From contig NW_022985557.1 of NCBI RefSeq assembly GCF_010093815.1, positions 1,116,001-1,180,000 of the forward strand: a stretch of DNA of 64,000 nt. Direction: 5' to 3'. The first letter of the stretch is position 1, and the number at the start of each line of letters is the position of its first letter. Origin of the DNA: Pseudovirgaria hyperparasitica. Lineage: Eukaryota; Ascomycota; Dothideomycetes; Acrospermales; Acrospermaceae. Under the pieces are notes generated by a model. It did not search any database. It was given only the letters and a program-made list of their open reading frames with translations, and was not told where the DNA came from. The position numbers and the translations under genes are program-made. Shown one piece after another: positions 6,437 to 52,436 of the stretch.

Positions 6437-8069
6437 GGATTAATCTGTGCAGGCGGAAGGTAGTAGATGGAGTTGATTCTGCCGTTCGTTCTCCATGTCT
6501 TTGATTTAGATTATATATATACATCTATATCATCTTCAAGGAACCGGTCCATCATTGCAACAGAAACAGTGGGGAAGAAACCCATTCCCACAAGTCCGCA
6601 CAAAGCAAGAAGAGGGTGATGGAATGAAGTACATCGTGGACACAGGGAGTCAACATAACTGGGCTCTGGATATTCACGAGGACAAAGGATGTTTGTTTGT
6701 CTAGACAAAGATACACCGATGTCCACATTCCAGAGAGCCAACAGGGATAGTCCTTGGAACAGCACAGCACATTCCTATGCAACCCCCCCTCCCCCCCTTC
6801 TGGAGATCACAGCCCCCTACTTCTGATATTTCAATCTTGCCAACTTTTTTTTCTCACACGACTGACGTGAGTCATTCGCGCGTGCTCCTTTCAGGGACGT
6901 GCGTTCCATGCAGGTTTCTTTCACTAACGCTTTTTTCGAGTGACGACTCTCCAAGTAATGCTCTCTGGAGATTCTTACCAGCGATTCCCAACAGCGATAT
7001 TCTCTTCTCTAGCAATCTCGCCTGAATTTGATACTATGACAGCGTACTATCTCCCATGGCTAACATCCTGCCTCCCACATGCGTGCTATTAGCATAGCAT
7101 TTCGTTCCAAGTAGAAATACTCTAGCCTGGTATGCTCGTAGCCTTTGCTTCTTTAGTTAGTACAGTTCTTATCGTTCTCGCTCTCCTCTTAGCTCTCGCT
7201 CCTTGTTCTTCTACTCTCCTTATCCCCTCGCCATATATTAGACCTTAGCTTAAACGCTCTCCATTATTCTATATCCTTATATAATCTCTATATATCAGGA
7301 GTGTATAGTATCTCTCGCATGTAGCTTCATCTCGTTTAACATCCGCTTATCTAGTCTATATATATGCGTATATGTCTTACTTGTAATATAGTAAGGACCA
7401 AACCTAATTTACTCCCTTGTTTAGTACTTCGTGAATCCTAGTTGAAGTAAAGTACCAAAGTAGATATGTTAAGATTATATGCATATACTAATACTAAAGA
7501 TATCCACTAGTACCATATATAAACTCTGCACTAGTGCTACATTCTACTTTATTACTCTTACTCCAAATCTATACATCTATATAGACAAGCCAAACTCCTA
7601 CCTACGGCTCCGAAGTACCAATTCATTCAATCCAAGCCTAATTAATCGATATTCTTACCTTGATCACTACCTTCTGTGAAGTGTTATCTACAAATAAACA
7701 CGCTACGGCGTGTGTGTAGCCCTCAGGAGTCAGTACTGCTAGTGCTAGCATTATTATAATAAATTAAAAGTCTCTCTATCTCTCTCTCTCGATCTATAGA
7801 ATCATCATACTATGTTCTGAAGGTAGCACCACGTCGACCTAGCAGCTAGACCCAGGTAGACAGATACCGCGATCTTGACTTCTGTGCATGCACGCACGCA
7901 CGTAGAAGAGGAGAGCTGAGATAAGCAGGAAATGATAAATGACATAATTCACACAGCGCACAGGGGGTCTGAAGACGACGATGTCATTTGAATCTTTTGC
8001 AATACTATTATTATGATTATAATTTTACGCCAGCCTTGCCTATATGTACGGTCTAGCCGTTTTGTTCAG
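6437..8069. other. AT-rich gene-free stretch
   Basis: From about 7040 to 7800 the base composition shifts to AT-rich with many TA steps and short pyrimidine runs, unlike the flanking genes. No frame with coding character is visible on either strand. A poly-C run sits near 6781-6798 and a CT microsatellite near 7774-7793. The composition fits a remnant altered by repeat-induced point mutation, but no element family can be named. Confidence 0.5.
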
Positions 8070-14189: not shown

Positions 14190-15070
14190 GAGAGAGAGGA
14201 AGCTGAAGCAAGGGCTCGTATTTTCATTCCGGCTTGGTTCGAGAGAGGCTGGATTCATGCAGCCTGCCTGCACTTCTTCTCAGGTGAGGACGGACACTGT
14301 GTCGTGGCGATGGGATGATTTCTTACCTCTTACTTACCTCTTTTTCCCTCTTCTTCGTCTTCTTCATCTTCTTTTACTTTTGATTCGCACACACATATAT
14401 ACACCGTACTAGAACCCGTTATACCGTTCTCATCTCGGCTCTCTTCCGTTCACGTCATGCACGTTTAAAAACCCCGTCTGCCGCAGCGACCGACCGACCG
14501 TAAAGTGCGGCGGAATAGAGAATACTAATTAATTAGCTGCATGGATGGATGGGATGCATTCATGCGGACCTGCGCCGGGTCGTGCGGGCCAATAGCTGGG
14601 TTGCGGCTGTGAAAGGCAGCTGGAATGGTCGGCTGCAGGCGGTGATGCATGGATGCATTGCATGCAAGGCAGATCCATTCCCCGGCACGTGGACGAGGTG
14701 AGGTGGCAGGCCTTTTTTTTTTGGACGGCCTGGTCTGGGCCTGTTGACTTTAGGTCGCTTGCGCAGTTGTTCATTCTTGTCGTTGCGTGTTATTGGTTAT
14801 TATTACATTCTTCGTGCGTACGGCTCGTGCAGTTCTCGTTGCTTTATCTCATCTGTCTTGCGCACATTTAACAAGCACTGGGTTGTGTGGAAGTCGACAG
14901 TTGTTGTCGTGTGCAAGCTTGACCTTCAAGTGGAGCTCGTTAGCGCGCCTCGAGTGAATACCTACCTAGGCACCATAACAACAACATCCTATCAAGTTCA
15001 TGACGGCTGCAACCCAGAAGGCAGACATATTACAGCATTCTCCCGCCGCCAACTTATCAAAAACAACAAA
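14190..15070. other. intergenic, with ATGCAT-rich stretch
   Basis: About 880 bases. It has CT-rich runs around 14320-14380 and clustered GATGCAT/ATGGATG words around 14538-14670. The frame upstream of the next gene stays open to 14744 but without coding character. No gene recognised. Confidence 0.5.
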
Positions 15071-16381
15071 ATGTCTGCCGTCAAAGGTCATCACAACCTT
15101 CTGACCTGCTTCACCCAAATGGATCTCCGCTCTCACCCTCCCCTAGACCCACAAAGAAGCTCACCAAACGAAATGGGCGCGATTTCCGCAGCCTGGAGGA
15201 CGACACCGAGCCATGACACCCACTGGTACCACCAAACACTACACAGTTCCAAATCTCTCGTCCTCCCTCCCCATCCAACAAACACCCACCCATCCCTAAA
15301 GCGCAAACGCGAAGCCCCAAGCACCATCGACACCACACTCCCAATCCCACATCTCGTATCTGCAGCATCCGGAGCACAAATAACCAAGCGACCCCGACTG
15401 CACCCACACCCCTTCGTGGCAATCCACCTACCCCCTACCCCTGACCCATCGCCACCGAAGAAGCGGGTCGGAGCATCGATGCTAACAACTCCTCCGCACC
15501 TACCTCCTCAGTCAGAAAAGCGGCAGCGCGGTTGCGGTGGACGTAAACGTGCGTATAATGTCAAGTTCAAGCTTGATAAGCATGTCCAGACGAGTGCTGC
15601 GGTCTGTGAGACGGTGGGAGTGCGTGGTCGGTGTGTGGATACGGGGCGTTCTGCGTGTTTAGGCGGGATGGCAAAGACGACGACGACGATGACGACGGAC
15701 ATGAGGCAGAATGCGATGGTGATATATCGCCTTTCGCCACCGGTTAGTCCGCTGCGTCAAGTACACCGGCCTAGAGGGATAAAGTCTGAGGTATCTTCGG
15801 AGCAAGAAGTTCGTAGTGCAGAGGATCCCGTTCGGGGGTCATCAACACCAGTAAACAATCCACTTCTTCGAACAGCCATATGCGGAAAGACAAGAAAGAC
15901 ACGCTCGTCACAGACAGAGCATGATAGAAGCGTGTCTGCTTTATCACCATCGCATGTCTCTCGCACGGAAACTTCCGATCATTCGGCTGGTGCCATTGTA
16001 CAGTCGAATATGTTAAATGGGCACACCACGGAGAAGCATACGCAAAGTCATGACACTCGATACAGTACGACTGCTGCTACCTCACCCCTGACGACACCCG
16101 ACGAATCCCTAGAAAGTAACAGAGTAATGTGTCGGGCTAGTACGTCCCCGCTGTCTGACTTTGACGATGCACTCCTCACAACCCCCTCGCCTACACCTAC
16201 GTCCACAAAAACATCAAAAACAGCACTTACACCGCAATCCGACATCTCATCTTCTAGACAACACTCTGCACCCGCTACACACACAGCATCACCCGCGCTC
16301 AATAGTTCAGCAAGCACGGAATGTCCTGTGGAGGGAGAGGGTGAGGGGTTTGGGCGTGTGAGGAGTTTGAGGAGGCGGTGA
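15071..16381 (+). CDS. orphan Ser/Thr/Pro-rich basic protein
   Basis: The open frame begins upstream at 14744, but the ATG at 15071 follows an A-rich leader and starts protein-like sequence, giving 436 residues. It is largely disordered: Pro/His-rich first 100 residues, basic clusters (Leu-Lys-Arg-Lys-Arg-Glu near 77, Lys-Arg-Pro-Arg near 105, Gly-Gly-Arg-Lys-Arg near 160) that look like nuclear localisation signals, then Ser/Thr-rich regions with several Ser-Pro and Thr-Pro sites. No domain recognised. Possible nuclear regulator under kinase control, by inference only. Confidence 0.6.
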   Translation: MSAVKGHHNLLTCFTQMDLRSHPPLDPQRSSPNEMGAISAAWRTTPSHDTHWYHQTLHSSKSLVLPPHPTNTHPSLKRKREAPSTIDTTLPIPHLVSAASGAQITKRPRLHPHPFVAIHLPPTPDPSPPKKRVGASMLTTPPHLPPQSEKRQRGCGGRKRAYNVKFKLDKHVQTSAAVCETVGVRGRCVDTGRSACLGGMAKTTTTMTTDMRQNAMVIYRLSPPVSPLRQVHRPRGIKSEVSSEQEVRSAEDPVRGSSTPVNNPLLRTAICGKTRKTRSSQTEHDRSVSALSPSHVSRTETSDHSAGAIVQSNMLNGHTTEKHTQSHDTRYSTTAATSPLTTPDESLESNRVMCRASTSPLSDFDDALLTTPSPTPTSTKTSKTALTPQSDISSSRQHSAPATHTASPALNSSASTECPVEGEGEGFGRVRSLRRR

Positions 16382-18027: not shown

Positions 18028-20744
18028 CTATGAAGCTTGTGCCATCTCAACATCCTCTGTTGCTGCCTTGTTCGCCTCTCCGAGTTCTTCTTCCTGCACA
18101 AGCTCTTCAGCTTCTTCAGCCTCTTCGACCTCTTCCTCCTCTTCCTTCATCTCTTCCTCCTGAGCGGCTGCTGCTGCGGCTTCCTCGGCCAGCTGCTTCT
18201 TGCTCTTGTTGATCCCCTTCTCCTTGTTGTGGTCAATCAATGGCGAATCATCGTTGAACAGCCTGAGTAGCATAGCCTTGCGATCCTCCTTCGGTAGCAT
18301 GAGTTGCAGGCTAAACACGCTGCGCCACAATGGCATGACCATGCGGTCTGCAAACCCATTCTCTGGATCACCACTAACCTCAACCCTGAGAACCGCACAG
18401 CCCATTGGAATGTCTCGCAATCGCTCAGCTATCTCGCCCAGCTCCTCGTTGTCCTGATTCACCTTGACGAATGTCTCGCGTAGCAGTCGATGCAGCGGCT
18501 TCCGCGTATACAGGCGGACAATGCGATCCTCGCCGACCCAGGAGTCGAGTATTGGCAGGCCTTCGGACTGGATACGCCACTTGCACACTTCCGGCGAGGG
18601 GGCGTCTTGCTTGACGAACATCTTAACTCCGCTATGCACAAATTTCATGCCGGAACCTTCGTTGAGCATCAATATCTGGCGGGTCAAAGCGGAAGTGTAG
18701 TAAATCGCTTTTACAGGGTCGCCATTCTCGTTGCGCACCATGAAGCGGTCGCGCGGGAATCGAGAGGAGAGGCCGTAGAACTTCGAGATATCTGCTAGAA
18801 CGGGATGATCGGGAGAGAGGTATTTGAAAGGCTCTTCTTTGGGTGCAGCACGTTTCTTTTGTTGGCTTATGTTTTGCTTTTGTGCAGGAGGTTTGGTGGT
18901 GGTGGCTGCTGGTGTTGTCGTGGTGGTAGCTTTATCTTGTTTTAAGCGTTTAGCTGACTGTTCATTTTCGTCGTCCTCGAGCGATCGTTTCGGCGAAGTT
19001 ACACTGTTTTCGTTCGGTGGTTCAATCGCAGGTTCGGGCAGGTCCTTTGGCAGTGAAACACCTCCATTGGTTCCATTTTCCGCCTCTGTTGCTGCAATTT
19101 CTGGCGATGTTGGAATCGAGGGCTCTGCATCGACTACTGTGCCCTTTGTCACACTTTCTTCCATGGCAGTTCCATTCGTTCCTTTTACACGTTTCGAGGG
19201 CGGATCGCGCAACTTCCGGATCTCAGCTGTCTTCTCAAGCACGGTGATGAAGAACCCCCCGCTGTCTTGCAAGTGTGGGTACACCCTCATACAATTTTGT
19301 AGTTGAATCTCCTCAGAGGCATCTGGTGCAAACATGCCTTCAGAGAGTCGTCCCATGGCCTCGTCGTTGTTCTCTTTCTTGAACTCCTCAGCCTCGTTCC
19401 ATGTCTTGAATTTACGGCCTAAGCGATCCACCACCGGCCAGTTCGAAAGTCCTGGTCTACGCTTCAGCCCGGCCATACGGTCTTCACAGTTGACCACCGT
19501 AACGGCTGCGCTTCCTCCGCATTTGTCGATGGCACTAGCAACAACTGCCTCATTCTCAATGGGGTTCATACTACACGTTGAGTATACAACCCTACCGCCA
19601 ACCTTCAGCATTTGCAGTGCTCGCACCAATATCTGAACCTGTGTGGCGTAGAGCCCAAGGGCGTTTTGTCTAGTCCAATCTTTCCAGACAGAGACGTTCT
19701 TGCGTGTCGTGCCATCGCCCGTGCATGGTACATCTGCTAGAATGCGATCGAATTTGAGATACTCTCTCGGCTTGCCTGGTTCAGCTTTCGTGATAATGGA
19801 GGGAAACATGCGCGCGTCGTGGTTCGTGACTATAAAGTTCGGGGAGTTGAGACGTTTTATTTGATGTACCAGCATTTGAGCCCGACGCCAGTCGATCTCG
19901 TTCGCTATAAGTAGACCAGTAGACCTGCCATCGTCTGACATGTCATCCTCTAGCTCAACCTCCTCTTGATCGATCTTGAGCTCCTCCCCGTCCGGGCTTA
20001 CTTCGCGTCCCTCCTCCTTGGCGATCTTCTTGAAGACCTTCCTCACTCTTGCTTCTTCTCCTGCATGAATCATTTCCGCGAGCTGAGCAGACTTGCTGCC
20101 TGGTGCGGCGCAAAGATCCAACACAGTCATGCCTGGCCCAATGTCCATCACTAGAGGTGGAATCATGCTAACAACCTCTTGTCTGCTGATATTGCCCACG
20201 CTGGTCTCGGACACGAGGAATTTCTGGAAGAATGCAAAAGGAGGCGACTTGCGAATCACTTGCTTTCCCGTAGTCATATGCCACGCCAATTGGTTTGGAT
20301 ACCATGGTATCTGTGTTGGGGGCTCCACGCCCTCGCCTTCAAATTCAACCGCAGAAATCTGCGGGATATAGCGGTCGACGAGAACTTTCTGAACAGTGAG
20401 GGCGTGTCTGGAGAAGTCAGCATCAGGTCATGGTGAGTCATGGACACACTTGCCCTTTGGAACCTGTGAAACGGAACGAATTGGGGAGAGTAGTTCGTAA
20501 GCTCTTCCAGAATGCGTCGCGCTCGCTTTCAGGCAAAATATTGACCTCCTCATTGTAGTACTGTTCGTAGTCTTTGTTCGACCGCTCGATTTCGGGCCAA
20601 CCGCCGGGTTGGTTGTCTCGTGAGCCACCGCCTGCTCCTCCGCCGCCTCCATTGCGACCGCCTTGGCGCCGCTGTAATACAATTAATTGCGCTCGCCATG
20701 GAGTCTTATTCTAGACTTACGCCTTTGCCTCGATGACGGCCCAT
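18028..20744 (-). CDS. trm4: tRNA (cytosine-5-)-methyltransferase, Trm4/NSUN2 family
   Basis: Three exons (20744-20721, 20671-20454, 20407-18028) encode 873 residues. The first exon gives eight residues; the second a Gly-rich basic stretch, then Pro-Gly-Gly-Trp-Pro-Glu-Ile and Asn-Ser-Phe-Arg-Phe-Thr-Gly-Ser, the N-terminal signature of NSUN2/Ncl1. The catalytic domain shows SAM motif Asp-Leu-Cys-Ala-Ala-Pro-Gly-Ser-Lys, motif IV Asp-Val-Pro-Cys-Thr-Gly-Asp-Gly, and the nucleophile motif Tyr-Ser-Thr-Cys-Ser-Met-Asn-Pro-Ile-Glu-Asn. It makes 5-methylcytosine at several tRNA positions in the nucleus. The last 60 residues are acidic Glu/Ala repeats. The second intron has a GC donor (GCAAGT) and a CAG acceptor, required by the frame. 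Length is greater than yeast Trm4 because of a disordered insert near residue 560. Confidence 0.93.
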
Positions 20745-21329: not shown

Positions 21330-22085
21330 ATGTCCCATCCTGACGGCCGACCGGATATGAAGGCTCATCCACTGAAGGATCCCATGCAATATGAGCAGGA
21401 AGTCTTCGAAAAAGGGCTCAGACATGAGAGTACACCGTTCACTTTCAAACCATGAGAATGGGGAAAGCAAGCGCTTGCTCGGTTATCTGCTGATAGTACT
21501 GGCTATCTCGCCAACGCAGGCAGAATGAGACATTCGACAAGAACATCGCTGCTATCAAGAAATGGTCAATTGTTCCACAGCGACTTGTCAAAGCAGAGCA
21601 TCCAGAACTCGAGGTCAAAGTCCTTGGGCAGAAGCTCAGCTACCCAGTAGCTGTTGCTCCCATAGGTGCTCAGACTATCTTCCACGCTGATGGTGAGATT
21701 GGGAGTGCGCTGGCTGCCAGGTCAGAGAATGTTCCATTCATTATGAGTACCGCGTCCTCGATTTCCATTGGAGCGGTCGCCGAAGCAAACGGCAATGGAA
21801 CACGCTGGTATCAACTTTACTGGCCCAGCAACGAGAATAATGAGATAATCAAATCCATTCTCCAAAGAGCACAAAGGGCTGGGTTTTCGGCCCTGATCGT
21901 GACTCTTGACACCTACTTGCCTGGATGGCGATCCCTCGATATGGACAATGGTTACAACCCATTTCTCCGTTCCGATTCGATCGGAGTGCAAATTGGCTTA
22001 ACCGATGCAGCGGATCGCAACAAGTTCAAGGAGAAACATGGATTAGATGTCGAACATGATCCTGATAGTCAAATAAATCTATCTC
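21330..22085 (+). pseudogene. 5' half of an FMN-dependent alpha-hydroxy-acid oxidase pseudogene
   Basis: Starts at an ATG at 21330 and reads Met-Ser-His-Pro-Asp-Gly-Arg, then Phe-Glu-Lys-Gly-Leu and Pro-Phe-Thr-Phe-Lys-Pro, as in fungal lactate oxidase/monooxygenase-like proteins. An in-frame TGA lies near 21450, and a frame change lies near 21520 before Glu-Thr-Phe-Asp-Lys-Asn. Downstream the frame shows Trp-Ser-Ile-Val-Pro-Gln-Arg-Leu, Pro-Val-Ala-Val-Ala-Pro-Ile-Gly, Met-Ser-Thr-Ala-Ser-Ser, Trp-Tyr-Gln-Leu-Tyr-Trp-Pro, and Thr-Leu-Asp-Thr-Tyr-Leu-Pro-Gly-Trp-Arg, all FMN-binding TIM-barrel blocks. Family similarity stops abruptly after Val-Glu-His-Asp-Pro-Asp at about 22075, where the sequence becomes the reverse complement of the same gene's 3' end. 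Confidence 0.85.
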
Positions 22086-22590
22086 TCGCACCAGACGCTT
22101 TCGGTTCAGGATGCATTGATCAACGGAGGGAATACCGCCTAGATGCATTGTGACCTCTAATTCACCAAGCAGAGCCCTGATTACGTGCGTTACACTTGCT
22201 TCACCTCCCAGAGCAAGGCCGTAGATATATGGCCTGCCAATTAAGCAACATTCTGCGCCAAGACCAAGTGCTTTGAGGATATCCGCGCCGCTGCGGATGC
22301 CAGAGTCGAAGATGACATCAATGTTGTCACCAACAGCATCTAAAATCTGTGGTAAAACCCTCAACGCGCTATTACCACCGTCTTGTTGACGCCCACCATC
22401 GTTCGGTACAACTATTCCTTGTACACCAGCCTCGACTGCTTTATTTGCATCATTGATGCTCTAGATTCCTTTAAGGACGATTGGGCCTTTCCAGTGCTCT
22501 TGGAGGAACTTTATATCTTCCCATGAGTGTGACTTTCCCGGGAATACGGTACGTGCCCATTCTGCTGCTGCTTGACCAATCATGAGCTGT
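22045..22590 (-). pseudogene. inverted 3' half of the same FMN-dependent oxidase
   Basis: Read on the minus strand from about 22590 down, this gives the part missing from the plus-strand half: Ala-Ala-Ala-Glu-Trp-Ala-Arg, Pro-Gly-Lys-Ser-His-Ser-Trp-Glu-Asp, His-Trp-Lys-Gly-Pro-Ile-Val-Leu-Lys-Gly, Gly-Gly-Arg-Gln-Gln-Asp-Gly, Phe-Asp-Ser-Gly-Ile-Arg-Ser-Gly-Ala-Asp, Leu-Ile-Gly-Arg-Pro-Tyr-Ile-Tyr-Gly, and the C-terminal Asn-Arg-Lys-Arg-Leu-Val. Two signs of decay are a TAG replacing a Gln codon near 22470 and Asp where the active-site His is expected just before Gly-Gly-Arg-Gln. The two halves face each other head-on, so no intact enzyme can be made. Confidence 0.85.
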
Positions 22591-23073
22591 AGAAGATCGG
22601 AAGAATTTACTACTCATGTAGAAGAACGCTTTGCAATCTTAATAAGATACGCTTAGCAATCTAGTCTCGGGCCTGTAATGTTTTGTCATATGCTCTAGAC
22701 CTAGGCTCCTTCTTGAAGGTGAGAATGTGAGCTCAGACTTGTGATAATGCTTCAGGCTATCATTCGATTGGAAAGCATATAGACGTACTAAAAATCATTG
22801 ATAGATAGATTACTTGGTACGCACAACGGGTGGGTTGCCATCTTCACATATTTTGAGCTGCTCGCTGACCTCCAAGCAAGTAAATGCGACCTACTAACAT
22901 ACTCATGATCAGATCAGATCACATGTTCATCAAAGAGCAAAGGATGGCAGGATTCGTCAGTCGATTTGGCAGGCTTACATCTGTATTTACAATCTCTCGA
23001 CATACAGTTTACCGCTCGACAGAGGTATACTCGCCGACCGACCAAACCAGCATTGCCGGGACCCTGCTACCGC
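22591..23073. other. intergenic
   Basis: About 480 bases with a slightly AT-rich middle. No feature recognised. The right breakpoint of the pseudogene inversion should lie near its left end. Confidence 0.4.
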
Positions 23074-24443
23074 CTATGATGCATTTGTTCCACTTGCCGA
23101 AAAAGTCTGATCATGCCAGGAATCTCCTTTCAGCTGCATCAGAGCTTCTGCAGCTTGGTGGGTATTCCAGTGCCTTGTCCTCGGAACGTCTGCCGCAGAA
23201 CTGTTCACGCCCTCTCGCTGGCATTCTATCAATCCCCATATAGCTTCGATCTCTGATACACAGTACTCTGACTGGGTCCGTGTGTTCACAGTAGATGACA
23301 TTCCGTCTGTGGATTCTCGAGAACGTCCTCCAATCGCATGGTGCACTTCAGGAGTCACCGGCGGACACATATCTGCATCATTCACTCCGCTTTGTGTATG
23401 GCGTGGTGTCTGCTGGCGCATTCGAGCGGACCTTCGCACGGAGGAAGATCTCGACGATTGCAGAGCATATGCTCTCTGAGGAGAAGCAGCATTGTCATCT
23501 GTATTTTCCCATTTCTTGGCTTGAGCGATGCAAATATCGACGATCGCTTGGGGAATGAGGAAGTTCGCAAAGCATTTATGCCCAGGCGGTATGCAGAGAG
23601 ATATAAAGTCTTTCCCAAACACTGGGGTCAGGGCGTATCTGATGTCATAACAGAATGTCGCCGCCGCTGCCTTGGCTGCTTCGAACGGAACCCAGTAACC
23701 TGAGAGCATGAGTAAACACCACAGGTACACGACAGATCAACTGACTGACCCTGTGCGGGAATACTTCCACCAGTAACATTAAATGCATAGTCATCGATGT
23801 TGTTGAGAGTAAGCATTCTCTTAGGTACTGTCTAGGGAAAGTGTTGGCATGGGACTGTTCCAACTCAGCAAAGCCATGTACGCACCTTGGAGTGGCCTAA
23901 TGCTTTGAAGAACGAAGTCATCCTGACGAAACCAGTTGTATGGTCCCATGCAACATACCAGAACTTCTCTTTCGCCTCGGCTACAACTCGATGACGAAGT
24001 TCATGAGGTAGTTGAAAGACGTACTGAAAAACTGCATCTCCATTAGCGATCTCTGTCGATATCACGCCTCTACTCTCCGCACCTTCGAACCCTGCACGTC
24101 CGGTCCTCTCCCGGAATTTCTTCTTGTTGCTACTGTACGGAATAGTGCGATGGTAGTTCGCGATGCTACCCTGAGGGAAAATACGAAATCTCCTGTGTTG
24201 CTGGGCGAGCTCTAGATCGCCCGCATCTTCATGGGATGGATAAGCAACATTCTCAGGAAGTGGCTCTGCTCTGACGAAGGGTATAACATCTTTTGGAAGC
24301 TTTGGAGCCTTTGGAGAATCCGGTGATATGATTGCTACTCCTGGTGGGACAAATGTACGAGGTAACGATTGAGTTTGATCGTATACAACATCGTCCATAG
24401 GTTGCCTAGTGGGATTGAGCATGGTCCTGATTGACATAGACAT
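23074..24443 (-). CDS. APSES-type DNA-binding regulator (Xbp1-like)
   Basis: Three exons (24443-23886, 23831-23750, 23699-23074) encode 421 residues. A 5'-UTR intron probably ends just before the start (GCTGAC branch, TTGCAG acceptor). Residues about 110-245 form a KilA-N/APSES domain: Thr-Ile-Pro-Tyr-Ser, Val-Phe-Gln-Tyr-Val-Phe, a Trp-Asp-His-Thr-Thr-Gly-Phe-Val-Arg-Met-Thr segment, Phe-Phe-Lys-Ala-Leu-Gly-His-Ser-Lys, Asn-Val-Thr-Gly-Gly, Gly-Tyr-Trp-Val-Pro-Phe-Glu-Ala-Ala-Lys, and Ala-Ala-Thr-Phe-Cys-Tyr-Asp-Ile-Arg-Tyr-Ala-Leu-Thr-Pro-Val-Phe-Gly. This combination matches the Xbp1 branch of fungal APSES proteins better than StuA or Mbp1. Both flanks are polar and Pro/Ser-rich. It probably acts in the nucleus as a repressor or regulator; target genes are unknown. 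Confidence 0.85.
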
Positions 24444-25336
24444 GACTGTTCTGCAATATATGTCAGCTGTTTTTTTGATTCAGTGTATATGTTGGAGTGT
24501 ACAGATTGTATGACAGACCAGACTTGCGGTGAAATAAAGACAAAAAGTGATGGTCGTACTACGGAAAGAGCTTGGGAGAGAATAAGAGCAGTGAGGTCGG
24601 TCAAACGCAATCTTTGGGAGAGATGGTTTGCGAGACAGCACATGAAGGCCAGCAAGGTCTTTTGTTGTCGAGTGGACTCTTGAACAGCGATATGGAAGAC
24701 TGGTTGGCTCTGTTCCATCCAACAACCTAAGCGTGTGCATCTGAAGTTCGTTTGAGCAGCTACAGTAGCTGGATTGAAGGATATCGGTTCGGATCAGGCT
24801 TTTTGGCAGTACGTTGAATTACATCCTTCGTCCATGGAGATCATTGGTTGTTGTTTGTCTCAACGAGCAGATTTCTATCCAGCCAGTTTCATGGCTTGTT
24901 TGCGTCTGCGGGCGGTGTGTGGCATTGCTTGTTTCTTCCAGAGATTGTCTCTGTCACCCAACGCTTGCTTCGGCTTCTTGCAGCAACCAAAATAGCATTT
25001 ATACATAGCTCGTTGTGAGCGATGGTAGAATGAGCCTTTTGACATTCGCACATGCACGTTCCACTGATGCACGCAGGGGTCAATCTGGAGCAACTGGTTA
25101 GTTCTGTGATCAGGACAATACCTGCGCGGCTCTCCACTATCAACCTGGGATAGGACTACTCAGCATCACTCGTAGCCTTATTAAGATGGCCTTGAAGATA
25201 GAGATCCATCGACAGGGGAATATACCCGGGTAGCTTGCACCAAGCTATTCGTATCCAACTGGACGTAAAGAGATGCCAAAAGCCTTTACTGGACAGTTAG
25301 GAGCTCCACTAGATCCTACTCCCAACATGAATAAGT

Positions 25337-25763
25337 CTAAATGCCGTCGTAGCTAGCCTGAGTCGAGTGCGGTGCGACAAGGTATTCTTGGATCGGTATA
25401 AGACGAAGACCATCATACAGCTGCCCGGTTCTAGCAAGCAAGATGACGTTGTTCAGCAGACGATGATATAGCAGCATTTCAGTCTGCGCGGCATATGTTG
25501 AACTTCCATGCATAGAATGAAACTCTAGAAAAGTCTTTTGATGGGTCTCATCGTCTAAGCGACTTCGTACGCCATGCATGTCTTTAGGACAGTTACAGCC
25601 GTTCTTGAACGGAAGACAGGGTATCCTAGCACGCATCTTTCTCCACGTTTCGATCAGAAAGACGGTGCTTGGATCCACAGATCCACAGCTCCACTCAAGC
25701 ACTGCACCAGTTCCTCCTGTCTGCTTGTTGTCACTGTCGGGCGATTGGACTAAAGAGCCCTAG
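25337..25763 (-). CDS. possible exon of an unrecognised gene
   Basis: The minus-strand frame stays open from about 25763, where CCTAG could be a splice acceptor, to a stop at 25337. The sequence looks protein-like: Glu-Trp-Ser-Cys-Gly-Ser-Val, Phe-Leu-Ile-Glu-Thr-Trp-Arg-Lys-Met, a Cys-Leu-Pro-Phe-Lys-Asn-Gly-Cys-Asn-Cys cluster, then two helical segments (Thr-Phe-Leu-Glu-Phe-His; Leu-Leu-Tyr-His-Arg-Leu-Leu-Asn-Asn-Val-Ile-Leu-Leu-Ala). No family recognised. A neighbouring minus-strand frame (25731-25919) with Cys-Asn-His-Cys might be part of the same gene. Could equally be a fragment. Confidence 0.3.
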
Positions 25764-29371: not shown

Positions 29372-30664
29372 TCAATCAAACGGGATCCTACGCAGCCCTT
29401 CAATGCCCATGCGCTTCTTCATTTCCTCTGCCGCGCCTACACTACTGGGAACCTTGATCCCGCAACAATCGCCCCACGAATTCGCCGTGTGGACGTGTCT
29501 CATGCCATCCTTCATGACTACAATCTCGCCGCCTTCCGCCTCATCCTCTTCGCGAGGCACGCCGCTCTGCTCCTCCGTGCTCATGCCATCCACAGCCGGA
29601 ACCAGCGATCCGAACAGGAAATGCTGCATCACGGGCAACTTGCCCAGCACCTCGCGCACAAACATCTTGCGCATGCCGCCCTCGACCTTTTCCCACGATT
29701 TGGCTGCGCTGATGTCGTCGAGCATGGGGCTGTGCCAGCGCAGACCCTCGACGTTCTTGACGCTGTTGACGAATTGTACTTGGTCGAGGTACATGAACTC
29801 CTTGCCGAATTCCTCGAGTGTGAAGGCTTGGTGGATGGACTTGGGGCGGATGTAGGGGTGGTGGTAGAGCTGTGATGCGCCGAAGAGGAATGGGAGGAAC
29901 TGGTAGTCGTCGAGACCCCAGACGCCGTGCGAGCCGGCGGGCTCAAGGTAGTATGTCGTCTGGACGTTGCGCATGAGGCGCAGGTAGCGGGGAAGGATGC
30001 GGAGGATGACGGCGGGGAAGGTGGATGGTGGGAGGTAGTTGAGGCGGTTGAGGCAGAGCAGCCATGTGAAAAAATTCAGCTCATGGCCGGAGCCGTAGTC
30101 GATTCGTGTCCTGTTGCCAAAGGAATTGCTCAAGTATGTTGATATCTCATCGACGGTGGCAGGATCTGTAATGCCTAGCTTCGCGTGCCATTCCTGCTGT
30201 GCCAGCTCGACCTCGTCGACGTATCGATGGAAGCTCTTGTTTCCAAAGCGTGAGCCTTCATTGTCTTCTGGTGGACATTTTTGTATGAGTGCCTCGGCCT
30301 CGTCGAGGACTTGTAGTACTGCGTGAATTATCGGGTCGAGTGTTTCATCCTTGGCAGAAGATATGGGTTTGTCTCTCACGCTGTCCGAAAGTGTGAAGAT
30401 GAAAGAAGTGATGAGATCGTATGTGGAAGAAGCTAGGAAGACGGCATGGTCGTGGGGTGAGAGAATACGTCTACTGGGCTTTATGTATTGCCATCCTTGC
30501 TGCGTCGCAGGAGGCTCTGGGAGTAGCGGAGTTTGCGGAGGAGGGCTGCGGGGTCGTTCAGGGACGCTGGATTTCCGATTCGCAGGGAGTAGGGATTTGA
30601 GGGGAGGAATCTTCTTGGAGAGATCTGGAGGACTTTCAGGGACGCCCTGTGTGGCTGTAGGCAT
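29372..30664 (-). CDS. rrd1: PP2A phosphatase activator (PTPA family, Rrd1-like peptidyl-prolyl isomerase)
   Basis: Single exon of 430 residues from the Met-Pro-Thr-Ala start at 30664; the frame extends to 30784, but those residues look like leader. After a Pro/Ser-rich N-terminus, the PTPA domain begins near residue 75 (Pro-Ser-Arg-Arg-Ile-Leu-Ser) and shows Phe-Gly-Asn-Lys-Ser-Phe, Ser-Phe-Gly-Asn-Arg-Thr-Arg-Ile-Asp-Tyr-Gly-Ser-Gly-His-Glu, Gly-Ser-His-Gly-Val-Trp-Gly-Leu-Asp-Asp-Tyr-Gln-Phe-Leu-Pro-Phe, and Phe-Met-Tyr-Leu. The C-terminus ends in Ser-Trp-Gly-Asp-Cys-Cys-Gly-Ile-Lys-Val-Pro-Ser-Ser, found in the long Rrd1 branch. These proteins isomerise a proline in the PP2A catalytic subunit and help load its metals. 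Divergent from the peroxin gene, 233 bases between starts. Confidence 0.93.
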   Translation of the reverse strand: MPTATQGVPESPPDLSKKIPPLKSLLPANRKSSVPERPRSPPPQTPLLPEPPATQQGWQYIKPSRRILSPHDHAVFLASSTYDLITSFIFTLSDSVRDKPISSAKDETLDPIIHAVLQVLDEAEALIQKCPPEDNEGSRFGNKSFHRYVDEVELAQQEWHAKLGITDPATVDEISTYLSNSFGNRTRIDYGSGHELNFFTWLLCLNRLNYLPPSTFPAVILRILPRYLRLMRNVQTTYYLEPAGSHGVWGLDDYQFLPFLFGASQLYHHPYIRPKSIHQAFTLEEFGKEFMYLDQVQFVNSVKNVEGLRWHSPMLDDISAAKSWEKVEGGMRKMFVREVLGKLPVMQHFLFGSLVPAVDGMSTEEQSGVPREEDEAEGGEIVVMKDGMRHVHTANSWGDCCGIKVPSSVGAAEEMKKRMGIEGLRRIPFD

Positions 30665-30897
30665 CTTGAGCGAAAGTGTGGTGTCGGTGGTGGATAATCG
30701 TAGGCACGCTGGGAGCTTGAGGAATCTTTGAAGCTCAAGCTGTAGGTTCCGTCCACGATAGGCTTGGCACTTCAACGTCATCACATGCTTTCACTCCGAG
30801 GCGCACGCCAAACTCCCAGTCACACTTCGCCCTGTTTCGAAGATACACTCCTCCACTGAAGCTCTCCATGAGATAGCAAAGCAGTGTCGAGTCCACC
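30665..30897. promoter_or_regulatory. divergent promoter, PP2A activator / peroxin
   Basis: 233 bases separate the two start codons (about 110 if the longer activator start is used). The two genes must share or interleave promoter elements. No specific binding site could be named. Confidence 0.6.
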
Positions 30898-48739: not shown

Positions 48740-51421
48740 TTACAATGACTGCATGCTCAGTCGACTCAAACGATTCGCTGTCGCCTCCACAAGAGCTGAT
48801 TCACGTTCCAGCATTTCCATTACCTGGTTGACCTTCTGCTTCTTCAGAGGAGAAGGTATATTATCCTGCGCGACCGGTGCGCTCGCCTCCTTCTTGCTGA
48901 TGATGTCTTTGGCGTCTGATCGGAGTCCTTCTTGTAGTCGCCTCAACTGTTCCAGTCTCCTCCATACTGGCATGTCTCCACTTTGGCTGTCGGCCTGCGA
49001 ATCTGGATTCAAGGAACTATTCAGTTCTTCGACTTCTTCCGCGAAAGACCTTTCCGCAGTGCTCATTTCCCGCCCGCCAGCTCGCGACAGCTTGCTCTTG
49101 ATGGCTTGGTATCTTGCGGAAAGCTGTTCCTGTCTGGCATTGACCTCGCTGAGGCGCTTTTCCACCTTCGTATTCCCATCTACCACCAGATCCTGTCCCT
49201 CATCTTCACCCGTGACTTGGTCTATGCGGTGTGCTAGCTCGCTTACCCGTCGCAGCTGATCTTTGAACTCATCTTGCAGACGCTCACATCGTCGAAATAG
49301 GTCGGCCGCAGCAATGCCCAGCTGATGGGTCTCCGCACTAAGAAGCCGATGTAAGCCTGTAAGAACATCCAAAGAAGCTGGTGCTAACTTGATCTCTTCT
49401 GCAAAGGCTCGCTTCTGTCTAGTCGGTACAGTTTTGCCGTAATATTTAACAAGTTCAGATTCTTTCCAGAATGCTACAGGTGGCTGATATGGCAACCGCG
49501 GCTCCGAGGTTGGCATCAATGGCTCTTCACACATCTGAGACCATTCAATCATCCTAGATTCCGAGTGAAGCTCATACTCGGGTATATCCAAAGTCGCGGC
49601 AAATGGTTGGTGGTCAGCCGAGAACAAGACAAAGTATCCAATATCCGAGTCCTCGAGAACTATGCAGCACGATACCTGCTCAGAATGTTGCTCAGCTACT
49701 GGAAGCTGTATAATACTTTCTGACAGTGTACGACTCCCCTCGAGGAGCACGTCCATACGAAATTCTGCGCCTTCTCTCTCAGCTACACTCAACTCTGTCG
49801 ATACTTTCTCGATCCATTTAGACAGAGATATGTAATAGACCCCTTGTTGGTGTGTCACAAATACTGCGTGCTGTGATCGCACATCCGGTGTGAAGGGTAT
49901 CCATACATTTTCGCCATGTCCTTTTGGTAAGGCGATGCTGTCAACGACTAGAAGCGCCAAGTCATCTCCTTCTTCGATAGTACGTGTGTCGGTACGACTA
50001 GGTAGCCACTGAGCCTCAACTCCGTTCAGATCCAAGCAGCAATGTACAATGCCAGACGTAGTAGACAGGAGTATGAGAGATCCTTCAACATCCTCATCCT
50101 CAGAATCGAACTCATCCTCATCTTCTTTCAACAGATCTTCCTTCGTCTCTTTCAATGGTGTCACGAATATGTCGCAAACATCTGCCTCGCCTTCAATCTC
50201 GATCTCGGGCATGATTTCGAAAGGTCCTTGTAATCTGGGGATGGCTGGAGTCTTGGTGGGTCGCTGATATACTTCGGCTGGACGTGCTAAGGATTCCCCA
50301 CCGAGCGACGTTGGAATCTGACTCGTGACTTCCGTAAGCCACTTTCTCTGCGCTTCCGCCCTCTTGGGATTTGCGTCGGAAGAGTTCCTGGTCGATAGAT
50401 GGCACTTCGCCGCTATGCCGGCCCCCAGTTCTCCAAACGGGTCGGTCTGGGACAGGGGGACCTCAACTTGCCATCGTTTAGGTAACAACGGGCAGAGAGC
50501 ATAGACGTCACCTCCCGTGGTAGCAATCCAGAGAGTCATCGAGGACCAATCGCAGGCCGCCCTTGATTTAGATGGTGACCCAAAACAGGCTGCAGCAACC
50601 TGAAGCTCAGCCATGTCAGGGGAGAAAGCTTTGCCGGAGCCATAAACGGAGGCCCTCAGATCAGCATCCGCGCTTGTAGCGTTTGCTAGCTTTTGCAGGT
50701 TGATCGCAAGTGTGGGTTCGCTGAAGCTTGAGCGATCGTCTTTGTCCAGCTCCCACATTCTGATGGAACCGTCTTCTGTGATTGTGACCAAGCATTTGCC
50801 TTGTACGCCAAGAGGGTGCCATTTTATGGAGGCCACAGGTGACTGTTCCAACACATGCGCTGTGGGACCCAGCTGAAATGTCTTCAGCTTTAATGGTGTC
50901 GTATCTGGGGTACCTAGGTGACTTGAGTCGGGAAGAATCGCAATATGGACTGTATGGGAGGTCGTAATCGCCATGTAATCGTTATGAGGTGAGATAGCCA
51001 GCTCTGTCACATTGCCAGAGAAAGGTAGCCTGAGGGTCTTGGACTATGTTAGTGAACGCTCAAGGCAGAGCAGGAAGAGCAGTATAAATACCCGAACGTA
51101 ACTCGAATCATTCGGTGCTGTTACCGAATTATCGCGGGACCGGCTTCTGCTGTGTATGCTTGAGGATCGACCAAAATCCAGAGGTCTGTTGCTTTCCGAG
51201 AGGAGAACGAGATCTGACCATCGAATCTCGCTATCTGTAGCTACAAATATTTCTGATCCACGATACGCTATGGTTCGTTGTGGTCTTCCTTTTGCGATCC
51301 CTTTAGATAATGCGCCAGCAGCCCGTTTTCCAGCAGGCGTTGTCTTAGAGCTCGAAAAGAGCTCATAGCCAGGTTGCGACCGACTCAGCCACGAGGGTGT
51401 ATAGCTCAGTATTCGAGGCAT
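48740..51421 (-). CDS. nup82: nucleoporin Nup82/Nup88
   Basis: Two exons, about 875 residues. Exon 1 (to about 51093) begins Met-Pro-Arg-Ile-Leu-Ser-Tyr-Thr-Pro-Ser-Trp-Leu and contains Ile-Ala-Tyr-Arg-Gly-Ser-Glu-Ile-Phe-Val-Ala and Ile-Arg-Trp-Ser-Asp-Leu. Exon 2 opens with Leu-Pro-Phe-Ser-Gly-Asn-Val and Ile-Ser-Pro-His-Asn-Asp-Tyr-Met-Ala-Ile, beta-propeller repeats such as Val-Ala-Ser-Ile-Lys-Trp-His-Pro-Leu-Gly and Asp-Gly-Ser-Ile-Arg-Met-Trp-Glu-Leu, an acidic insert near residue 390, and a long alpha-helical/coiled-coil C-terminus from about residue 660 with heptad-like Leu/Val spacing. Nup82 is the cytoplasmic-face scaffold binding Nup159 and Nsp1 for mRNA export. Family assignment rests on this architecture and the N-terminal motif. 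Divergent from CBP20. Confidence 0.88.
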
Positions 51422-51710
51422 CCTGATACAGTATCTTCAAGCTTTAAAAATCTACTGTGAAATAGAAGGCTCGAAGGTGGTCCACGGTACTTGGCGGGTG
51501 ACAGCGCGCAGTAAACACAAACTGGTAGCAACAAGCTGCGCGCTGGTGAAGCTAGCGCTAAAATTTCGGGACTAAACACAGCTTCACCTGGCCCTACAGA
51601 AAGAGCTTCGAATTCCTGCTACCTAGCAAAATCGAGCTTGATTTGGAAGAGAAACAACGTGTACTCTGAACAACATTTAATACGTCTACCCGGAAGCCTT
51701 TCGAACAATC
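51422..51710. promoter_or_regulatory. divergent promoter, Nup82 / cap-binding CBP20
   Basis: 289 bases between start codons. Two genes of the mRNA export path share this short segment, which may allow co-regulation; no specific site is recognised. Confidence 0.55.
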
Positions 51711-52436
51711 ATGCCTAGACCAGGAGTTCTGCGTAATACGATAGATCGATTAGATCGACCGAGTTCTTATACTGCGAATAAGGTACACTCGCACACGTGT
51801 TAAGCTATCTTGTATATATACTAACTGGGTCCTCCAATAGAACCGACGTCACCGTAATAACCGTCGCGACGATGATGGAGAACGTACACGGTCGCCTGAA
51901 CCTGATGATAAGCTCAAGGATGCCACAACCCTCTACGTGGGAAATCTGTGCGTGAAGAAAGGACTCGAAAACCACGAGAAATGAGATGGTCTCGCTACTG
52001 ACATTATGATCATAGTTCTTTCTACACGACTGAAGAGCAAATTCACGAGCTATTTGCCAAGTGTGGGGAGATCAAACGTTTGGTCATGGGCCTCGATCGC
52101 TTTACTAAAACCCCATGCGGTTTCTGCTTTGTCGAATACTACAATCATCAGGATGCTCTGGACTGTCTGAAATATATTGGAGGAACGAAGTTGGATGAGC
52201 GCATTATTCGAACAGATCTCGACGAAGGCTTTGTCGAAGGAAGACAGTACGGGTATGTATTTGGAGATCTAATAATGTTAATTCCTTCTATATCGGCGGC
52301 TAACGAGCATGAAAACAGTCGCGGAAAGTCTGGGGGACAGGTCCGAGACGAATATCGCGAGGAATATGATCCAGGCCGCGGTGGGTACGGTCGCGCTCTG
52401 GCTGAGGACCTGGATCAGGACCGCGACGTGCGGTGA
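51711..52436 (+). CDS. cbc2: nuclear cap-binding protein subunit 2 (CBP20)
   Basis: Four exons (51711-51782, 51841-51947, 52016-52252, 52319-52436) encode 177 residues, normal for CBP20. After Met-Pro-Arg-Pro-Gly-Val-Leu and a basic stretch, the RRM shows RNP2 [11 protein letters not shown] and RNP1 Pro-Cys-Gly-Phe-Cys-Phe-Val-Glu-Tyr. The C-terminal half of the RRM contains [18 protein letters not shown], the CBP20 signature that binds the m7G cap together with CBP80; the tail is Arg/Gly/Asp-rich. It binds capped pre-mRNA in the nucleus. The third intron falls inside the signature (Tyr-Gly|Arg-Gly). Convergent with Pdx2, 140 bases between stops. Confidence 0.95.

Follow-up and report, generated by a model that had tools for sequence, protein, structure and literature searches.

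An FMN-dependent alpha-hydroxy-acid oxidase pseudogene probably split by an intragenic inversion of approximately 520 bp

In a stretch of 64,000 nucleotides (referred to here as the window), the two halves of a single type of oxidase gene were found side by side on opposite strands, the N-terminal half on the plus strand and the C-terminal half on the minus strand. As judged from its sequence, the locus is a pseudogene of an FMN-dependent alpha-hydroxy-acid oxidase (PF01070) of the lactate oxidase/lactate 2-monooxygenase-like type. One balanced inversion of approximately 520 bp accounts for the order, strand, and reading frame of both halves, a reading to which we assign a probability of about 90%. 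An earlier note on this DNA had proposed a hydroxy-acid oxidase gene split by a single inversion of its own 3' half; the gene identity was borne out by PF01070 matches on both strands and by complementary profile coverage, and the same coverage, together with order, strand, and frame, supports the single event.

The window lies in contig C9 of a 35.0-Mb genome assembled in 59 contigs. Genes neighboring the pseudogene encode an NSUN2-like methyltransferase (18028-20427, minus strand), PTPA (29372-30790, minus strand), a Pex24p peroxin, and a SUN-family beta-glucosidase, the last two being typical of fungi; these neighbors thus point to a fungal origin of the DNA. A 559-codon open frame at 14702-16381 (plus strand) and open frames of 220, 204, and 140 codons at 23074-25759 (minus strand), beyond the pseudogene, have no Pfam match at an E value of 0.01.

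Identity of the locus and its complementary halves

A profile search of the genome returned a plus-strand PF01070 match at 21509-21970, spanning profile positions 15 to 165 (E = 5.5e-39), and a minus-strand match at 22568-22113, spanning positions 193 to 343 with one TAG within it (E = 1.8e-57). In Pfam, PF01070 matched the plus half with an E value of 2.6e-40 and the part of the minus half beyond the TAG with one of 2e-45; each half separately exceeds the curated cutoff of the family, and all four E values are far beyond chance. Solved relatives are 7f20, 7f22, and 6dvh, which are lactate oxidase and lactate 2-monooxygenase structures, and lactate oxidase and lactate 2-monooxygenase entries occupy the top five places for both halves in a ranking by similarity. 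Residues 55 to 228 of 6dvh, a lactate 2-monooxygenase, correspond to the plus half, and residues 274 to 388 correspond to the part of the minus half that was tested.

The relationship between the halves was examined with a 390-position profile built from 23 homologues (the 25 best rows of the homologue table, minus L010, which repeats L001, and minus L076). The plus strand covers positions 8 to 52 and 56 to 227 of this profile, and the minus strand covers positions 229 to 381. The 5' end of the pseudogene (21330-21520, plus strand) begins with a start codon at 21330, matches positions 8 to 52, and is broken by the TGA at 21453-21455; its score is weak at 9.1 bits (E = 7.4e-05 in a three-fragment search). 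It is followed by the main N-terminal half (21521-22060, plus strand; positions 56 to 227, 185 bits), in which the profile match proper stops at 22051, and by the inverted block of approximately 520 bp (22061-22580, minus strand; positions 229 to 381, 198 bits), in which the blocks of the C-terminal half are correctly ordered. Three profile positions are absent between the two plus-strand segments, at the frame change, and no intron was seen in the gene. The main plus and minus halves do not overlap at all, and a single profile position is absent between them. Complementary, balanced halves in opposite orientation are as expected of a gene disrupted by an intragenic inversion.

The homologues came from bacterial records, IMG/VR contigs, and paralogues in the same genome. 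Scans with the C half contributed the best 80 of 158 relatives in genome_contigs and 12 relatives in viral_contigs. The N half, when scanned against the viral contigs, produced 11 pattern matches, none of them a relative. The collected loci held 288 open frames of at least 300 codons, 102 of which match a fragment of the pseudogene and 101 both halves. Removal of the duplicates L010 to L014 of same-genome loci left 97, with 96 matching both halves (5 from the same genome, 79 from genome_contigs, and 12 from IMG/VR; 92 sequences were distinct). Identity in the 25 best rows was approximately 36 to 46% for the N half and 44 to 55% for the C half. Identity to the nearest paralogue was 42 to 47%, and the best protein paralogue, a 448-amino-acid open frame on contig C1, shares approximately 42% identity with the N half. 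In a DNA search of the assembly, neither a further copy nor an uninverted one turned up, the locus itself being the sole match. Another FMN oxidase locus, L007 (C1:2629828-2630940), gave matches in four separate pieces, with a TAG and a TAA in one of them; the pieces may reflect either introns or a second decaying paralogue.

Junctions and origin of the inverted block

As the plus-half profile match stops at 22051 and the minus-half match starts at 22571, the junctions lie beyond those points. The minus half remains similar to homologues up to residue 172 of the piece, which corresponds to 22083, and the left junction was bounded by the two homology ends at 22052-22082. The right junction was placed at 22571-22600, where the upper limit is estimated. 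Loop spacing and reading frame give best estimates of 22060/22061 and 22580/22581, respectively. In the 46 homologues in which both anchors flanking the break could be aligned, the inter-anchor length is exactly 44 residues in 31 and ranges from 41 to 98 in the other 15. Twenty-seven of these 31 have an Asp, and 21 have an Asp and a Trp, with seven residues in between. In the window, the Asp codon ends at 22060 (plus strand) and the Trp codon starts at 22559 (minus strand); seven residues between the two therefore require junction ends that add up to 44640, such as 22060 and 22580, with the frame kept. The Asp-Trp spacing in homologues thus favors ends near 22060/22061 and 22580/22581, as far as can be read from sequence. 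Against this estimate, the register gives the window 51 residues between the outer anchors, compared with 44 in the 31 homologues, with six extra before the Asp and one after the Trp.

A TGA at 22583-22585 (plus strand), in the uninverted 3' flank, is the first in-phase stop on the favored register for left ends from 22058 to 22075 and is possibly the former stop codon of the gene; for left ends from 22054 to 22057 on the same register, the first stop is at 22619 instead. With the TGA at 22583, approximately 25 residues would trail Gly 155 of the C piece, and the corresponding tail is 13 to 45 residues in 94 homologues. A second in-frame pair of ends, 22071 and 22587, with 2 nucleotides shared, is possible. 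The inverted block is close to 520 bp under either pair, and all junction positions are estimates because the homologues are distant (bacterial, IMG/VR, or paralogues from the same genome). The block size of approximately 520 bp given in the earlier note therefore stands. Its limits require adjustment: positions 22045 to 22060, which it had read as part of the minus half, belong to the plus half on the favored estimate, and its left end at about 22075 would agree better with the 22071/22587 pair.

The simplest account of the arrangement, which we infer to be one event, would begin with double-strand breaks at two places, within the coding region where the barrel halves meet and near the stop codon. 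The intervening piece would then have been joined back in reverse orientation, hardly any DNA being gained or lost, most likely by end joining without repeats. A repeat search at the locus revealed no inverted repeat joining the two ends of the block, and no tandem repeat with a score of at least 30 was found at the block ends. Microhomology at the junctions is not above chance; the longest shared end among the junction pairs tested is 6 nucleotides and is not used as evidence, as 119 of 500 shuffles of the junction regions reach at least 6. Repeat-induced mutation (RIP) of a duplicate was considered, since a C-to-T change could yield one of the stops, and was rejected: the composite RIP index is -1.07 at the locus and -0.52 for the whole window, and the DNA search of the assembly was without a second copy. 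With no inverted repeat, shared ends at chance level, and negative RIP indices, end joining of two breaks is the likeliest route. Several other features of the window were recorded. The composite RIP index is positive in only 2 of 64 one-kilobase bins, at 7001-8000 (39.7% G+C) and 51001-52000. A 12-nucleotide direct repeat (11 of 12 identical) at 22588-22599 and 22617-22628 lies just outside the right junction; it was picked after the fact, and a comparable repeat occurs at 18 of 2,000 random places. An imperfect inverted repeat (11 nucleotides, 82%) at 22581-22591 and 22608-22618 starts at the favored position of the right junction and is probably due to chance.

The absence of repeats also bears on whether the inversion could have been created by the assembler, with the block uninverted in the organism; the locus would then be an ordinary pseudogene carrying point lesions. 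The 59 contigs of the assembly leave some room for such an error. However, assemblers flip blocks mainly where inverted repeats flank them, and no inverted repeat linking the two ends was found; the window lies inside a 1.58-Mb contig, and the DNA search identified no alternative copy. An assembly error is therefore unlikely, although it is the most probable of the alternatives to a genuine inversion.

Still less probable is that two distinct FMN oxidase genes once lay tail to tail and that each was reduced to a half complementing the other. The genome does hold several PF01070 genes (17 matches, many of which are pieces of one gene), and the two halves rank the homologues with only moderate agreement. 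The Spearman coefficient of 0.55 between the rankings of the 96 homologues by N half and by C half neither proves nor disproves a common origin, as the set is narrow and was mostly gathered with the C half; the paralogue L001, for instance, ranks first for the N half and falls outside the first eight for the C half. The common origin of the halves rests instead on their coverage, which is complementary to within one profile position, whereas two genes truncated independently should show overlaps or gaps, and the reading frame fits at the favored junction. The 23-sequence profile and Pfam both return one gene type for the two halves, which speaks against the objection, raised with the original proposal, that they belong to different genes.

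Lesions and loss of function

In addition to the inversion, the locus carries two stops, a frame change, and a substitution in the active site. An in-frame TGA (21453-21455, plus strand) lies 41 codons after the start at 21330. At approximately 21520 (21516-21524, plus strand), homology shifts from the frame of 21330 to that of 21503, and the earliest ATG in the long plus-strand frame is at 21743. Translation of the C-terminal half revealed an in-frame TAG (22463-22461, minus strand) and an Asp codon (22400-22398, minus strand) in a column that is His in all 96 homologues and that we take to be the catalytic base of the family. Translation and the homologue columns place all four of these lesions where the earlier note had put them.

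Conservation was counted on a profile-based alignment. Of the 24 columns shared by at least 98% of the 96 homologues, all 5 that fall in the plus half are kept, as are 16 of the 19 in the minus half. Those lost are the His, a Ser two positions N-terminal to it, and a Gly. When each homologue was left out in turn, 84 of the 96 lost none of the columns, and the two that lost three are both paralogues from the same genome. When the threshold is lowered to 90%, 4 of 49 columns are lost in the window, and losses of at least four occur in 9 of 96 homologues, so that the count of conserved columns alone is not telling, while the His and the frame lesions are. Unlike working PF01070 enzymes, which have one continuous frame across the whole barrel and a catalytic His, the locus is divided between two strands, is interrupted by the TGA, the frame change, and the TAG, and has Asp in place of the His. 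Function appears to have been lost: no single polypeptide would be made, and its catalytic residue would be missing.

These lesions weigh against two further explanations. A reversible DNA switch, in which site-specific recombination flips the block to turn the oxidase on and off, would suit a balanced block within one gene; inverted repeats at the two ends are not above chance, and the TGA, frame change, TAG, and lost His break the reading in either orientation, making a switch exceedingly improbable. Equally hard to credit is a working split enzyme made of two half-barrel proteins from opposite strands, for although the break presumably separates the first four from the last four barrel strands (assigned by reference to glycolate oxidase), the frame from the ATG at 21330 hits the TGA after 41 codons, the long plus frame has no ATG before 21743, and the C half contains a TAG and lacks the His.

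Returning to the inversion of a single gene, it is plausible that the point lesions represent later decay, as suggested in the original reading. A more specific history, which we offer tentatively and at somewhat less than even odds, is that the inversion came first: in a fungus, two breaks in a still active oxidase gene would have been repaired almost without loss of DNA, turning the second half-barrel around, and the point lesions would have followed. If this is true, sister strains may still carry the intact, uninverted gene, and the locus could serve as a datable natural knockout.

Comparison with known inversions

Literature searches at the level of titles and abstract openings returned nothing on the oxidase locus itself, and searches whose outcome is tied to their wording returned no paper joining intragenic inversion, pseudogenes, and fungi; among the papers listed for intragenic inversion by itself, most concern human genetics, judging by title. 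Disruption of a gene by a small inversion is a known and ordinary kind of event, of which this locus is an unusually legible case. When less than a kilobase of coding sequence is inverted, each half resembles an incomplete gene lying on the wrong strand. Automated annotation would probably list a pair of fragments or miss the gene entirely, and such inversions may therefore be undercounted. As the uncertainty in each junction does not exceed a few tens of bases, the locus is a useful positive control for finding other cases and is also useful for studying end joining in filamentous fungi.

Two bodies of work offer a comparison. In humans, 1,586 intragenic inversions with both ends within 1,030 protein-coding genes are described, 1,356 of the 1,586 affecting a single intron (PMC12229492). 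The oxidase inversion resembles these: it is balanced, its two breakpoints fall within or at the border of a single gene, and end joining, one route named for the human inversions, is the likeliest at this locus. The human inversions are mostly intronic (PMC12229492), whereas coding sequence is inverted here. In the Dothideomycetes, frequent intrachromosomal inversions, often bordered by simple repeats, are described as shaping gene order in the pattern known as mesosynteny (PMC3516569). The event proposed here is likewise a within-chromosome inversion in a filamentous fungus, but mesosynteny inversions, as outlined there, are changes in gene order, in contrast to a block of approximately 520 bp that has no tandem repeat scoring at least 30 at its ends and lies within one gene (PMC3516569).
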